This document shows positions 9,482-14,769 of a stretch of 40,548 nucleotides of DNA, in pieces. Source of the DNA: Treponemataceae bacterium (GTDB lineage: Bacteria > Spirochaetota > Spirochaetia > Treponematales > Treponemataceae); NCBI GenBank assembly GCA_024402495.1, contig JAKSTR010000019.1:1-40548 (forward strand), read 5' to 3'. A model generated the notes under the pieces. The model did not search any database and was not told where the DNA came from. It saw only the letters and a program-made list of their open reading frames with translations. Within the stretch, counting starts at the first letter, position 1. Each line of letters starts with the position of its first letter. The position numbers and the translations under genes were made by a program.

Positions 9482-11350
9482 ATGAAAAAGCTACTTTTAA
9501 AAGCAATGGCGCTCTGCCTCATTGTTTCACTTGTTTCTTGTGCTTCATCTAAAAAAGCTGCACCAAAAGAAGAACCATTAAGTGTTACAACCCAAGACAA
9601 CAAAAAAGACACTTTTCCGGCAGCAGATAGTCCAGACATTTCTTCTGGTTTTGCCGCTGACAACTTAAGTGATACTATCATCGATACTGATTTGGACAAA
9701 ATTAGTGAACCCGGCATGGTAGTAACTGAAGACACCGACGGTTTAAGTGATTCCCTTACAACCCACGATAAAACCCAGACAAATGCTCAGGGCGAAATTA
9801 AAGACGCTAACTACGTTGAAAGCAGTGATGCAGCCGAACTGGCAGCCCAGCGTGCCGCAGCAGAAAATGAAGCTGCACAGTGGAAACAGAATCATAATGC
9901 TATTTTGAGCAAAAGCATCAACAGCATCACAAAAGACGACATTGCTGCAATTCAGAAAGCAATTGATGAATACGGCAAACTGAGTCCGGCTGCAAAAAAT
10001 CTTTTGACAAGCGAATACAAAGATTTGCAGAACAAGCTTGCAAAAGCAAATGCTGACGCAAAAGCAGATGCAGACGTTGCAAAATGGAAGCAGACTCACA
10101 ATGCAATTATCAGCAAAGATGTTAATTCTATTACTGCAAACGATTTAGACGCTATTCAGAAAGCAATGAACGATTACAATTCTTTAAGCGATGCTGCAAA
10201 AGCAAAACTGGTTAAAGAATACAAAGACTTGCAGAACAAGCTTGCAAAAGCAAAAGCCGCCGCTGACAAAGCCAAGGCTGACGCAGAAGCAAAGGCTAAA
10301 GCCGATGCCGAAGCTAAAGCAAAAGCAGACGCTGCTGCAAAAGAAAAAACTGCTGCTGAAACTGCCGCCAACAAATGGAAGAAAGATAACAGCGCAATCA
10401 TCAACAAAAATATCAACGATATTACAGCAAATGATTTGAATGCTATTCAGAAAGCAATCAACGAATATAACGCTTTGAGCGATGCTGCAAAAGCTTTGGT
10501 ACAGAAAGAATACAAAGACTTGCAGAACAAGCTTGCCAAGGCAAAAGCTGATGCTGACAGCGCAAATAAATGGAAGCAGAATAACAGCGCAATCATCGGC
10601 AAAAACATCAACAGCATCACATCTGATGATTTGAATGCTATTCAGAAGGCAATCAACGAATACAATGCTTTGAGCGACGGTGCAAAAGCTTTGGTTCAGA
10701 GCGAATACAAAGATTTGCAGAACAAGCTTGCTAAAGCAAAAGCTGATGCTGACAGCGCTAATAAATGGAAGCAGAACAACAGCGCAATTATTAACAAGAG
10801 CGCAAGTTCTATTACCGCAAACGACTTGAACGCTATTCAGAAAGCAATTAACGAATACAACGCTTTGAGCGACGGTGCAAAAGCTTTGGTACAGAAAGAA
10901 TACAAAGACTTGCAGAACAAGCTTGCCCTTGCTAAAGCTGATGCAGAAAATGCTTCTAAAGATGCAGGTAATACACTTTCTTCTAGCTTAACAAGCGGAA
11001 CCGGTAAAGAAACAAGCAACCTTGCAAACGGTCACGTTGTACTTGATAACGCCCAGTACTACACAGTACGCCGCGGTGATATGCTTATCCTGATTGCACG
11101 CCGTTTCTACGGTTCAGAACGTGAAAACTACTTCCCGGTAATTATTGCTGGTACAGAAGACAAAATTGAAGATCCGGATGTTATTGAACCAGGTCAGAAG
11201 TTGACAATTCCAGATATTAAAGCTGCACTTTCAACTGAAGATTCTAAAGAATACGTACGCAAAACATTCTACGATGTTGCTGACAAATACGATCAGAAAG
11301 GCAAACCGGGAATGGCTTCTCAGTTACGCGCAATTGCAGCTTCTCTGTAA
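9482..11350 (+). CDS. Repeat-rich lipoprotein with C-terminal LysM domain
   Basis: A 622-residue envelope lipoprotein. The signal peptide ends in LVSC (lipobox, Cys20). An acidic linker leads to five homologous helical repeats that begin with W at residues 134, 202, 299, 364 and 429; each has the pattern WKQNNSAII...DLNAIQKAINEY, then ALSDxAKALVxxEYKDLQNKLAKAK. Repeats 3-5 are exactly 65 residues apart and nearly identical in DNA. An Ala/Lys-rich coiled segment follows repeat 2 (about 256-296). A LysM peptidoglycan-binding domain starts near residue 526 (YYTVRRGDMLILIARRFYG). It probably spans the periplasm from membrane to cell wall. Strong GGAG start and terminator; monocistronic. The Ala/Lys-rich part recalls treponemal TmpB, but I cannot show homology. 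Confidence 0.85.
   Translation: MKKLLLKAMALCLIVSLVSCASSKKAAPKEEPLSVTTQDNKKDTFPAADSPDISSGFAADNLSDTIIDTDLDKISEPGMVVTEDTDGLSDSLTTHDKTQTNAQGEIKDANYVESSDAAELAAQRAAAENEAAQWKQNHNAILSKSINSITKDDIAAIQKAIDEYGKLSPAAKNLLTSEYKDLQNKLAKANADAKADADVAKWKQTHNAIISKDVNSITANDLDAIQKAMNDYNSLSDAAKAKLVKEYKDLQNKLAKAKAAADKAKADAEAKAKADAEAKAKADAAAKEKTAAETAANKWKKDNSAIINKNINDITANDLNAIQKAINEYNALSDAAKALVQKEYKDLQNKLAKAKADADSANKWKQNNSAIIGKNINSITSDDLNAIQKAINEYNALSDGAKALVQSEYKDLQNKLAKAKADADSANKWKQNNSAIINKSASSITANDLNAIQKAINEYNALSDGAKALVQKEYKDLQNKLALAKADAENASKDAGNTLSSSLTSGTGKETSNLANGHVVLDNAQYYTVRRGDMLILIARRFYGSERENYFPVIIAGTEDKIEDPDVIEPGQKLTIPDIKAALSTEDSKEYVRKTFYDVADKYDQKGKPGMASQLRAIAASL
9881..10960 (+). repeat. Tandem coding repeats (five units, ~195-bp period in the last three)
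   Basis: In-gene tandem repeats encoding the W...EYKDLQNKLAKAK unit. Units start at 9881, 10085, 10376, 10571 and 10766. The last three have a constant 195-bp period and high DNA identity, making them prone to copy-number change by recombination. Confidence 0.85.
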
Positions 11351-11397: not shown

Positions 11398-11468
11398 ATG
11401 CCCTTTTGAGTTTTATATTGTATAATTAAACGGATTTATTTTTCATTTTTTTTATTTTGGAGGAAAAT

Positions 11469-12176
11469 ATGGGAACACCACATAACAACGCAAAACCGGG
11501 CGATATTGCACCAGCCGTTTTATTGCCGGGCGACCCTCAGCGTGCAAAACATATTGCCGAAACTTTTTTGGAAAACCCTGTATGCTACAACGAAGTACGC
11601 GGAATGTTAGGCTACACAGGTACTTACAAAGGCAAAAAAGTTTCGGTACAGGGCACCGGAATGGGACAACCTTCCCTTTCAATTTATGTAACCGAATTAT
11701 TTAAATTTTACGACGTTAAAAAAGCCATTCGCGTTGGCACTGCCGGCGGCGTAAGCGCAGATACAAAAGTAAGAGACATTATTCTTGCAAGCGCCGCCTG
11801 TACCGATTCTGCAATTAACACCCACCGTTTTAAGGGCATGCATTTTGCACCTGCTGCCGATTTTATGCTGTTAAAGAACGCATACGACGCGGCAACTACG
11901 CAAAATCTTTCCGTAAAAGTTGGTTCAGTATTATCCAGCGACCTTTTTTACGAAGAAACCGAAGCATGGAAACTTTGGGCAAGTTACGGCGTTTTAGCGC
12001 TGGAAATGGAAGCTGCGGAACTGTATACCCTTGCCGCAAAATACGGCAGACAGGCTTTGGCTGTTCTTACAATTTCTGATAACGTAGCAACACACGTAGA
12101 AACTACGCCGGAAGAACGCCAGACCACATTCAATGATATGATTAAAATTGCACTTGAAGCTGCAATTGCAGACTGA
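11469..12176 (+). CDS. deoD: Purine nucleoside phosphorylase, DeoD type
   Basis: A 235-residue hexameric-type purine nucleoside phosphorylase, which cleaves purine (deoxy)ribonucleosides with phosphate to base and (deoxy)ribose-1-phosphate in salvage. It aligns with E. coli DeoD along its length: N-terminal [11 protein letters not shown], phosphate-loop [37 protein letters not shown] (ribose-binding Glu) and TISDN with the catalytic Asp, then the signature [15 protein letters not shown]. The start at 11469 has GGAGG at ideal distance; the ATG-like codon 12 bases upstream lies before the Shine-Dalgarno. A TATAAT lies at 11421-11426 with only a weak -35. It is transcribed alone, facing a convergent nucleotidyltransferase gene. 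Confidence 0.95.
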
Positions 12177-12198
12177 GAATCAAGCAGTTTATAAAAGC

Positions 12199-12230
12199 AA
12201 AAGCCCTTTCCTCGCGGGAAGGGCTTTTTA
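12199..12230. terminator. Bidirectional terminator between deoD and the nucleotidyltransferase
   Basis: AAAGCCCTTTCC / GGGAAGGGCTTT stem with a 4-base loop, flanked by A and T tracts, in the 70-base gap between convergent genes. Confidence 0.85.
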
Positions 12231-12247
12231 TATGCGAACAAATTAAA

Positions 12248-13162
12248 TTACTGTTTTTCCCAAAGCTGTTCAGGATAATAGTTTGTTTTAATTTTATCTG
12301 CAATTGCTTCTTTTACAGAAGCACGGTCTTCCGGATATGTCATGCCGAACCATTTTTCGGTAGAAGTAAAAGCTTTTACAGTGCCCAGTTTTTTGTTAAC
12401 AATTAAACCGGCGGCAACAGGCAGCAAGCCTTCTGCTTTTTCGCTCTCAATATTATTCTTAACAAAATCATCCCAGTAAAGATGAAATCCTTCAAAAGCG
12501 TTTGGCGTAAAACCAAAAAAGTTCATCGAAACGCTTTCTTTGCCGGTAAATTCAACGTTGCCGCCTTCAAGCTGGCTGATGATTTTATCGCCTTCAAAAC
12601 CGATTTTGGTATGTTCGCACATTGAAACAAGCAAACCGTTTTCAATCTGGCACACGCCGCGGGAAACCGTACCGTTTTTGCTCATTGTATTGGCAAGCTG
12701 GTAACTGACCATCGCGTGTTCCGTGCTGGAATTGTCCAGACCGGACAAATATTTGCCGATTGTCTCAAAACCTTCGCGTCCATAATAATCGTCGGCATTG
12801 ATAACGGCAAAAGGTGTTTTTATAGCATCTTCGGCACAAAGAACTGCGTGCATTGTACCCCAGGGCTTTTTGCGTTCCGGCGACTGTTTTGCAAGCTGTT
12901 CACTTGTAAAGCATTTTTTAGGATCCTGAAAAACATATTCAGCGTCGAAATTCTTGGCAACCCGGTCAAAAAGCCGTTCTCTAAAATCTTTTTCAATATC
13001 TTTGCGAATAATATAAACAACCTTGCCAAACCCACTGCGCATTGCATCAAAAGTAGCAAAATCAAGCAAAGTTTCGTTGTGCAAACCAATAGAATCAATT
13101 TGTTTTACGCCACCGTAACGGCTGCCCATTCCGGCTGCAAGAACTAAAAGTGTTGGTTTCAT
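12248..13162 (-). CDS. Sugar-phosphate nucleotidyltransferase family protein
   Basis: A 304-residue cytoplasmic nucleotidyltransferase. The N-terminal nucleotide-binding signature is LVLAAGMGSRYGGVKQ, followed by KPWGTMHAVL (product loop) and INADDYYGREGF with the metal-binding Asp pair. The family includes glucose-1-phosphate uridylyl- and thymidylyltransferases; the substrate cannot be assigned from these motifs. The start at 13162 is preceded by AAGGGAA; an ATG 15 bases upstream is before it. It has its own promoter and stands alone. Such enzymes feed cell-surface polysaccharide synthesis, but no surface-sugar genes are nearby. Confidence 0.8.
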   Translation of the reverse strand: MKPTLLVLAAGMGSRYGGVKQIDSIGLHNETLLDFATFDAMRSGFGKVVYIIRKDIEKDFRERLFDRVAKNFDAEYVFQDPKKCFTSEQLAKQSPERKKPWGTMHAVLCAEDAIKTPFAVINADDYYGREGFETIGKYLSGLDNSSTEHAMVSYQLANTMSKNGTVSRGVCQIENGLLVSMCEHTKIGFEGDKIISQLEGGNVEFTGKESVSMNFFGFTPNAFEGFHLYWDDFVKNNIESEKAEGLLPVAAGLIVNKKLGTVKAFTSTEKWFGMTYPEDRASVKEAIADKIKTNYYPEQLWEKQ

Positions 13163-13205
13163 ATAATTTCCCTTCATATTTTTTCGTTTTAAAATGTATT
13201 AGTAG

Positions 13206-13234
13206 ATTGTAAAATGAGCGCTTTGTATTGTCAA
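13206..13234 (-). promoter_or_regulatory. Promoter of the nucleotidyltransferase gene
   Basis: Minus strand TTGACA (13229-13234), 17-base spacer, TACAAT (13206-13211). Confidence 0.8.
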
Positions 13235-13278: not shown

Positions 13279-13340
13279 AAAAAAAAGTCAGCTACCAAGG
13301 GGAAGCCGGAGAGAGATAGCTTCGTGCCTCAGTAACTGAC
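13279..13340 (-). ncRNA. Predicted small hairpin RNA with pyrimidine-rich loop
   Basis: A predicted transcript of about 60 bases that is one long stem-loop ending in eight U. Reading the minus strand: 14 consecutive pairs (13327-13340 with 13287-13300, including G-U pairs), an asymmetric internal loop (three bases opposite one), five more pairs (13319-13323 with 13302-13306), and a 12-base apical loop UAUCUCUCUCCG (13307-13318). The loop is complementary to GGAGAGAG-like Shine-Dalgarno sequences. The predicted transcription start from the promoter at 13347-13375 falls on the first paired base. No reading frame is present. I do not recognise an Rfam family. Alternative: an unusually elaborate terminator for the MATE gene ending at 13414. 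Confidence 0.5.
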
Positions 13341-13346
13341 ACGTCT

Positions 13347-13375
13347 ATAATGGCATAAATAGAAAAACTATTCAA
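13347..13375 (-). promoter_or_regulatory. Promoter for the predicted hairpin RNA
   Basis: Minus strand TTGAAT (13370-13375), 17-base spacer, CATTAT (13347-13352). It is positioned 7 bases before the hairpin RNA and cannot serve the MATE gene upstream. Confidence 0.5.
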
Positions 13376-13413: not shown

Positions 13414-14769
13414 CTATTTTTCAGTGGCGGCAGGCGTTACCATTTCTTTCTTCATAAACTGAAACATAATTAAAGCCATTGTCACAGAAAAAATATCTGC
13501 GATTGCCTGACAGTAAATGATGCCGTTTAAGCCCGCAATTGCACGGGTAATAAAAAGCAGCGGCACAAAAACCAGCCCCTGCCGGCTGACAGACAGAATA
13601 AGCGACGGCAATGCCTTTCCCATTGCCTGAAAAGTATTGTTCAAAACAAACAAAATACCCAAAACCGGCATACTAAGCTGCAAGGCACGCACCATCAAAA
13701 TTGAATATTGCACGGTTTCCGGGTCGTCCATAAAAACGCCAACGATTTGCGCCGAAAAGAAAAAATACACAACCGTTAAAACCGAACCGATTACAAGGTT
13801 TCCCATGCTGGTAAAGCGCACTACTTCGTTCATGCGCCTGTAATTTTTTGCGCCAAAACTGTAGCCAACCAAAGGCTGAACGCCAAATGCAAGCCCAAGC
13901 ATAATGAAAACGATGAACATATTTGCTTTTCCGGCAATTCCCATGGAAGCAACGTAAACATCGCCGTAACCGGCAAGAAAATTGTTCATCATAATGTTAG
14001 AAAGACTCATCAAAACGTTGTTTAACGAAGCCGGCGTACCAATTGCAAATACGTTGCTAAAAATGCCGTCGCCCAAACTTACTTTTACCGGGTTAAGCGA
14101 AAGCATGGTGCGCTTGCTGGTTAAAATATAAACAACATAAAAAACGCAGGTAATAATATTGCCTATTACGGTTGCAATTGCGGCGCCTGCAACGCCAAGC
14201 TTCATTCCCAAAATCATTATCGGGTCTAAAACCATGTTTACAACCATACCGAGTGTTTGACCGAACATTGCGGTTTTTGCAGCACCTTCGCCGCGCACCA
14301 TGTTGCTGAAAGCTACGCCAAAAACAACCATCGGCGCGCCGTAAGCAATCCAGCGCAAATAATCAGAAGCGAAACCTAAAGTATTTGGACTTGCGCCGCA
14401 AAGTGTCAGCAAAGGTTCGGTAAACAGCAAAAATATTGCGCCGATTACAAGCCCTATAACAATTCCGCCGTAACAGCAAAATGCCGAAATATGGGCAACC
14501 CTTTCGTGTTTTTTTTCGCCCAGCGAGCGCGAAAGATAGGCGCTGCCGCCGATACCAAAAATGTTGCCCGCAGCCATTAAAAATAAGAAAACAGGCGTTG
14601 CAAGGCTTACGGCTGCAACCTGGTTCGGGTCGTTTGTGCGGGCAATAAAAAAAGTGTCAACCATATTGTAAAAAACGTTTACAAGCATTGTAAGAATGGT
14701 TGGCAGTGCCAGCTTAAGCACGGCTTTTGGAACCGGTGCACTTTCAAAAAGTTCTGCATTTTTAAACAT
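13414..14769 (-). CDS. MATE family multidrug/cation exporter
   Basis: A 451-residue integral membrane transporter of the MATE superfamily, with about 12 hydrophobic helices in two homologous halves. The N-terminal pattern (APVPKAVLKLALPTILTMLV...YNMVDTFFIAR) and the matching second-half motif (NMVDPIMILG-like VLDPIMILGMKLGVAGAAIATVIG) are typical of NorM/DinF-like bacterial MATE proteins, which use Na+ or H+ gradients to export drugs or metabolites. The start has CTGGAG eight bases upstream. A second MATE protein is encoded at 25466 on the other strand; the two differ clearly in sequence. Substrate unknown. Confidence 0.9.
   Translation of the reverse strand: MFKNAELFESAPVPKAVLKLALPTILTMLVNVFYNMVDTFFIARTNDPNQVAAVSLATPVFLFLMAAGNIFGIGGSAYLSRSLGEKKHERVAHISAFCCYGGIVIGLVIGAIFLLFTEPLLTLCGASPNTLGFASDYLRWIAYGAPMVVFGVAFSNMVRGEGAAKTAMFGQTLGMVVNMVLDPIMILGMKLGVAGAAIATVIGNIITCVFYVVYILTSKRTMLSLNPVKVSLGDGIFSNVFAIGTPASLNNVLMSLSNIMMNNFLAGYGDVYVASMGIAGKANMFIVFIMLGLAFGVQPLVGYSFGAKNYRRMNEVVRFTSMGNLVIGSVLTVVYFFFSAQIVGVFMDDPETVQYSILMVRALQLSMPVLGILFVLNNTFQAMGKALPSLILSVSRQGLVFVPLLFITRAIAGLNGIIYCQAIADIFSVTMALIMFQFMKKEMVTPAATEK

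Follow-up and report, generated by a model that had tools for sequence, protein, structure and literature searches.

A conserved hairpin with an invariant pyrimidine-rich loop, very probably a small regulatory RNA, in one genus of Treponemataceae

The locus and its hairpin

The window analysed here, a stretch of 40,548 nucleotides from a Treponemataceae bacterium (GenBank assembly GCA_024402495.1, contig JAKSTR010000019.1, positions 1 to 40,548), carries a hairpin-forming element between a MATE transporter gene and a sugar-1-phosphate nucleotidyltransferase-like gene, both of which lie on the minus strand (14769-13414 and 13177-12248, respectively; Table 1). The original prediction, made from the letters of the sequence, had named the upstream gene as a MATE transporter, and for the window this is right. 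The nucleotidyltransferase-like protein (12248-13168, minus strand) has no Pfam match at E 1e-3, has relatives at 41-79% identity in Spirochaetota, Bacteroidota and Clostridia, and apparently represents a conserved family that Pfam does not cover; the closest of its relatives that bear a name are recorded as Treponema or Spirochaetaceae, and the four rows that served as outgroup carry the label Treponemataceae. Elsewhere in the window (9482-11350, plus strand) is a gene for a 622-amino-acid lipoprotein-like protein with several near-identical repeats of about 60 residues (WKQNNSAII...YKDLQNKLAKA), the C-terminal part of which we take to be LysM-like.

Read on the minus strand, the element is a hairpin of 62 bases that opens with GTCAG, closes with CTGAC and runs directly into eight T. 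Its stem consists of 14 pairs, a small internal loop and 5 further pairs (6 with the closing U.G), and presents a loop of 12 bases, TATCTCTCTCCG. The predicted architecture of a 14-bp plus 5-bp stem, a 12-base loop and eight U is thus borne out on this strand, with a minimum free energy of -27.5 kcal/mol against a mean of -12.0 for shuffled sequences (z -6.61; 0 of 200 shuffles as good). The range given originally, 13279-13375, runs from the last T through the first base of a proposed -35 box. On the plus strand the fold of the window copy is far poorer (z -2.15), and the same bias is seen in all five copies described below, with z of -4.6 to -6.6 in the minus sense and -0.8 to -2.7 on the opposite strand, because the G.U pairs of the stem become A.C mismatches there. 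The strand of the RNA is therefore fixed by strand-biased folding in five copies. A plus-strand RNA, whose loop CGGAGAGAGAUA would expose a GGA motif, was considered and rejected, as its fold is near background and the U-tract and promoter-like box lie on the other strand.

Table 1. Coordinates of the features at the hairpin locus in the window
Feature	Position	Strand	Evidence or remark
Sugar-1-phosphate nucleotidyltransferase-like gene, conserved downstream neighbour	12248..13177	-	Start 13177 (13162 if orthologues are followed); lies after the element in 5/5
Separate promoter-like site of the nucleotidyltransferase gene, TTGACA-17-TACAAT	13206..13234	-	11/12 in the window
Predicted hairpin RNA of about 62 nt, complete from the start of the stem through the final U	13279..13340	-	Fold z -6.61; homologues of the hairpin in 4 further genomes
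U8 tract, forming together with the stem a 3' end like that of an intrinsic terminator	13279..13286	-	Sequence; weak or interrupted in 3/4 relatives
Stem 3' arm	13287..13306	-	Fold; includes pairs with two-sided changes
Invariant pyrimidine-rich 12-base loop UAUCUCUCUCCG	13307..13318	-	Identical in 5/5 copies; 16/16 with two closing pairs (13305-13320)
Stem 5' arm	13319..13340	-	Fold; includes pairs with two-sided changes
Promoter-like boxes TTGAAT-17-CATTAT for the hairpin RNA	13347..13375	-	Same layout in 5/5 copies; by letters no better than shuffles
MATE transporter gene, upstream in the window only	13414..14769	-	MatE PF01554, E 5.8e-56

Loop conservation, stem covariation and distribution

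The loop together with its two closing pairs forms a 16-base core, GCTATCTCTCTCCGGC. When this core was scanned with up to two mismatches across 8 genomes of the genus, it was found identical and in single copy in five, namely the window genome and the relatives G001, G002, G003 and G006, and each of the five exact copies sits within a long hairpin; the sole further match was a two-mismatch site in a coding-like stretch of G002. Around the core (85 bases before and 60 after) the window copy shares only 46-51% of its aligned flanking bases with the other four, against 16/16 for the core itself. The flanks of the four relatives are 78-96% identical to one another, and since four of the five copies are so closely related the comparison rests on about two independent lineages.

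Within the stem, 5 of the 18 pairs show changes on both sides, and standard pairs occupy 91% of the pair cells compared with 33-47% when the partner is slid. The covariation score of 0.361 (0.238 +/- 0.032 for shuffled alignments) was reached by none of 500 shuffles; the alignment behind these values was fitted to the hairpin structure and hence favours it, and an unfitted MAFFT alignment yields the same score. Covarying pairs and an invariant loop, for which the original prediction had suggested looking, are both present. What is found is the pattern by which trans-acting sRNAs with a C/U-rich loop are recognised, that is, an exposed pyrimidine-rich loop that is kept while the stem varies in a compensatory way, and on comparative grounds selection appears to have maintained the loop and let the stem drift, with the stem as holder and the loop as message.

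We also asked by eye whether the hairpin encodes a short peptide containing YLSPA. One frame is open through the loop, and each of the five copies has an ATG or GTG ahead of it. However, the third positions of TAT CTC TCT CCG are all invariant, the frames stop at different places, and the start codon falls within the stem and has no spaced ribosome-binding site, so that a coding function is extremely improbable.

An exact 14-mer from inside the core, CTATCTCTCTCCGG, occurs in 5 of 274 genomes of the family, the same five as above (reversed control, 2 matches); a phylum-wide sample of 392 genomes yields it in 2, both of the same genus (reversed control, 3). A covariance model of the element gave 5 strong matches in the 274 family genomes (E 3e-13 or better), again in the same five, and 3 weak matches at chance level (E 8.6e-4 to 0.013), GGCTATCTCGCC, GGCTATCTTTCTCCC and GCTATTTATCTCCGGC, none of which has the exact core and the last of which reads as a terminator on the opposite strand. 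In this family search, as in any of more than 40 genomes, at most 20 candidates per genome were scored under strict filters and diverged forms may be missed; in the three other genomes of the genus, G004, G005 and G007, all candidates were scored and there was no match up to E 5. A loose scan for the core with 3 mismatches is uninformative, matching 263 of the 274 family genomes. Viral contigs contain 3 exact 16-mers and 66 exact 14-mers, of which 56, including all three 16-mers, fall within open stretches of at least 150 codons; one viral match, in which the loop is closed by a long predicted stem, lies inside an open stretch of 173 codons and is taken as chance. A search of plasmids gave no match to the element, and of 80 nucleotidyltransferase loci of more distant relatives, the 25 inspected, all from spirochaetes, showed no such hairpin. 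Among the genomes searched, the hairpin is, by sequence, restricted to one genus.

Promoter-like boxes, 3' ends and neighbouring genes

If the hairpin is an RNA gene of its own, it should have a start and an end. In the window a TTGAAT box (13375-13370) is followed by a 17-base spacer and by CATTAT (13352-13347), which ends 6 bases before the first paired base, and in all five copies the best sigma-70-like pair is likewise TTGA[AT]T followed by 17 bases and a -10-like box ending 5-6 bases before the stem. The window boxes match 8 of 12 hexamer letters, below the 9-of-12 threshold of our scan, and are equalled by 275 of 500 shuffles; across the five copies, 272-336 of 500 shuffles per region do as well. 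Thus, of the predicted promoter with its start at the first paired base, the location and layout recur in all five copies, the letters stand at chance level, and only the common position speaks for a hairpin promoter. At the 3' end, the U8 of the window and the U8 following a G in G003 make good terminators, and the tails of three relatives are poor (GUUUUCC in G006 and G002, GUUGUCC in G001). From these sequences the window copy is likely to be transcribed autonomously; for the three relatives this is less certain.

The element stands upstream of the nucleotidyltransferase gene in all five genomes, with 139-187 bases from the core to the ATG. In the relatives it is preceded by deoD in the same direction, as read directly at two of the four loci, and the other two share the same sequence as that found after deoD. 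In the window deoD is on the other side of the nucleotidyltransferase gene and in opposite orientation, and MATE is upstream of the element. At 11457-13177 the nucleotidyltransferase gene is accordingly convergent with deoD, and in G002 and G006 it is downstream of and codirectional with it; on our reading, the hairpin stayed with the nucleotidyltransferase gene through a local inversion or relocation. The MATE orthologues of G001, G002, G003 and G006 are on other contigs, and the core is absent from the retrieved loci of all four. The element therefore goes with the nucleotidyltransferase gene and not with MATE.

These observations bear on whether the hairpin does no more than end the message of the preceding gene, MATE in the window and deoD in the relatives, as an intrinsic terminator of unusual length. 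The window copy does have a hairpin followed by U8, and wherever the sequence before the element was read, a gene in the same orientation ends there. However, terminator loops need no conservation and this one is invariant through a change of upstream gene, the U-tracts are poor in three of the five copies, and the four MATE orthologues lack the element. A terminator of MATE would travel with that gene and have a loop free to vary, and we have rejected this narrower version; in its general form the terminator explanation is quite unlikely. Like ordinary intrinsic terminators the hairpin has a GC-containing stem and then a U-tract, and it differs from them in its longer stem, its 12-base invariant loop and the promoter-like box at the stem base. 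The original prediction of a free-standing element, which was to be given up if the hairpin occurred only downstream of MATE orthologues with no promoter conservation of its own, or if its loop was not conserved, is supported by the invariant loop, the covarying stem and a promoter-like box whose position is shared by all five copies. To judge from sequence comparison, the hairpin is very probably a real small regulatory RNA, undescribed so far, rather than an ordinary gene-end signal.

The constant neighbour raises another alternative, namely that the hairpin is a cis-acting leader, placed by read-through at the 5' end of the nucleotidyltransferase message. This would fit its position, always beside that gene even where the orientation relative to deoD differs, and the weak terminator tails in three genomes. 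Yet a near-consensus TTGACA-17/18-TACAAT lies between the element and the gene in all five genomes, so that the gene appears to have its own promoter, and strong U-tracts end the window and G003 copies. Pairing of the loop to the start region of the nucleotidyltransferase gene is also unremarkable, and the gene exists without the element in G005, where deoD adjoins it with no hairpin between (contig G005:C95, positions 1-2590 of the retrieved locus). We consider a leader function unlikely. The nucleotidyltransferase tree places G005 between the window and the other four genomes, with support of 82/83 and 91/91, a position which favours loss of the element in G005, transfer of the element into one lineage being a possible alternative; a 26-base match to the promoter region in G005 falls in a coding region. 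G004 and G007, on deeper branches of this tree, have a different upstream region and no element.

Possible action of the loop and relation to known small RNAs

Our best reading, to which we assign a probability of about one half, is that the hairpin is a lineage-restricted, independent and very small single-hairpin non-coding RNA gene that acts in trans through its loop, most likely on ribosome-binding sites of the GGAGA type. The transcript would start at or beside the first stem base and fold into one long hairpin displaying the invariant loop CUAUCUCUCUCCGG, and termination would be provided by its own stem and U-tract, in the window and G003 at least. The loop would then act in trans. Its most likely partners are purine-rich ribosome-binding regions, GGAGA(GA), with which it would pair and so lower the translation of a set of messages. 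We infer that the element is transcribed, where its RNA begins and ends, that it acts in trans, that it pairs with ribosome-binding sites, and in which direction it regulates.

The UCUCC of the loop is complementary to GGAGA-type ribosome-binding sites before several window genes, for example MATE (CUGGAGAUUUU), and when 30 window ORFs were ranked by loop pairing the MATE site was among the best relative to shuffled loops; that of the nucleotidyltransferase gene was not. The longer word GGAGAGAG, at 2-9 bases before an ATG, has no site in the window genome and 2, 2, 1 and 4 sites in G003, G006, G002 and G001, one site in the relatives being the element itself read on the other strand. GGAGAGA at 3-9 bases before an ATG occurs 5 times in the window genome (2 for the reversed control) and 76 times in the five genomes (32 for the control), an excess that is as expected for any Shine-Dalgarno-like word. 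Among 30 inspected GGAGAGA loci no gene was matched in both the window genome and a relative, and the five genomes contain no near-full complement of the loop beyond the element itself and one two-mismatch site in a coding-like stretch of G002. One lead as a target, based on predicted duplexes, is a secreted-protein gene that has GGAGAGAGA in G006 (-16.6 kcal/mol), with a 60%-identical homologue in G003 that has GGAGAGA (-12.5 kcal/mol); a similar leader stands before a truncated start at a G001 contig end. Separately, genes for small secreted or membrane proteins at four loci carry the leader AAGGAGAGAGACAAAAATG, and at two of these, both G001 contig ends, a nearly identical leader stands before the starts of different proteins, suggesting duplication or recombination of the leader.

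A point against the pairing reading is that invariance of all 12 loop bases exceeds the need of a 5-7 base seed. This brings in a serious rival, in which the conserved loop binds protein instead of mRNA and the hairpin serves as decoy or cofactor to a protein that binds pyrimidines, whether Rho, ribosomal protein S1 or one of the cold-shock or KH-domain proteins. YC-rich loops are well suited to proteins of this sort, the loop bases are fixed together with both closing pairs, beyond what a short pairing seed would call for, and no conserved complementary target was found in the genomes searched. Decoy RNAs usually carry many sites, though, and here there is a single copy per genome with a single loop. 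We regard protein binding as possible, if clearly the less probable course. More speculatively, and held only tentatively, the element may be a minimal regulator that combines its functional loop and its terminator in one hairpin of about 60 nt made from its own start, either a broad antagonist of ribosome-binding sites or a decoy for a pyrimidine-binding protein, in a lineage that may lack a classical Hfq and with the exact 12-base loop as the whole message.

Returning to the small-RNA reading, a compact RNA whose single loop is fixed while its stem changes freely offers a clean test object for loop function, and it comes from a phylum for which one review lists only 6 distinct annotated sRNAs compared with 345 for Proteobacteria (PMC9029176). 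According to another paper, the supposed Hfq of Borrelia is not an RNA-binding protein and Leptospira has a real Hfq (PMC11607428). We found no report of the hairpin RNA in open-licence PMC papers. With Rfam 15, only a tRNA elsewhere in the window reaches its gathering threshold, and the loci around the elements of the four relatives gave no match up to E 1. The best scorer was NmsRb of Neisseria (RF02877; 19.9 bits against a gathering score of 52, E 0.48), also a pyrimidine-rich small RNA, but the invariant loop lies outside the printed match and the hairpin is not a member of that family.

The original prediction likened the element to C-rich-loop small RNAs of other bacteria, which is apt as a functional comparison and gives no family assignment. 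The intergenic sRNA RepG of Helicobacter pylori pairs through the C/U-rich loop of its terminator hairpin with G-rich mRNA leaders, and its second stem-loop alone is sufficient for regulation (PMC8295292), a precedent for regulation by a single hairpin. The likeness lies in this regulatory site; RepG differs in having an extra upstream stem-loop and homopolymeric G-repeat targets, and Rfam found no sequence relation. The C-rich-region sRNAs of Firmicutes (IsrR, FsrA and RsaE type) provide a second comparison, with single-stranded C-rich motifs, located partly in hairpin loops in the case of IsrR, that target Shine-Dalgarno sequences in AT-rich genomes (PMC9410917). IsrR has multiple motifs, multiple hairpins and a terminator apart from them, whereas the element described here has one hairpin with an alternating UC loop, and its targets are only candidates. 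By analogy, we therefore file the hairpin functionally among the small RNAs that act through a pyrimidine-rich loop, and not by sequence with the RepG or IsrR families.
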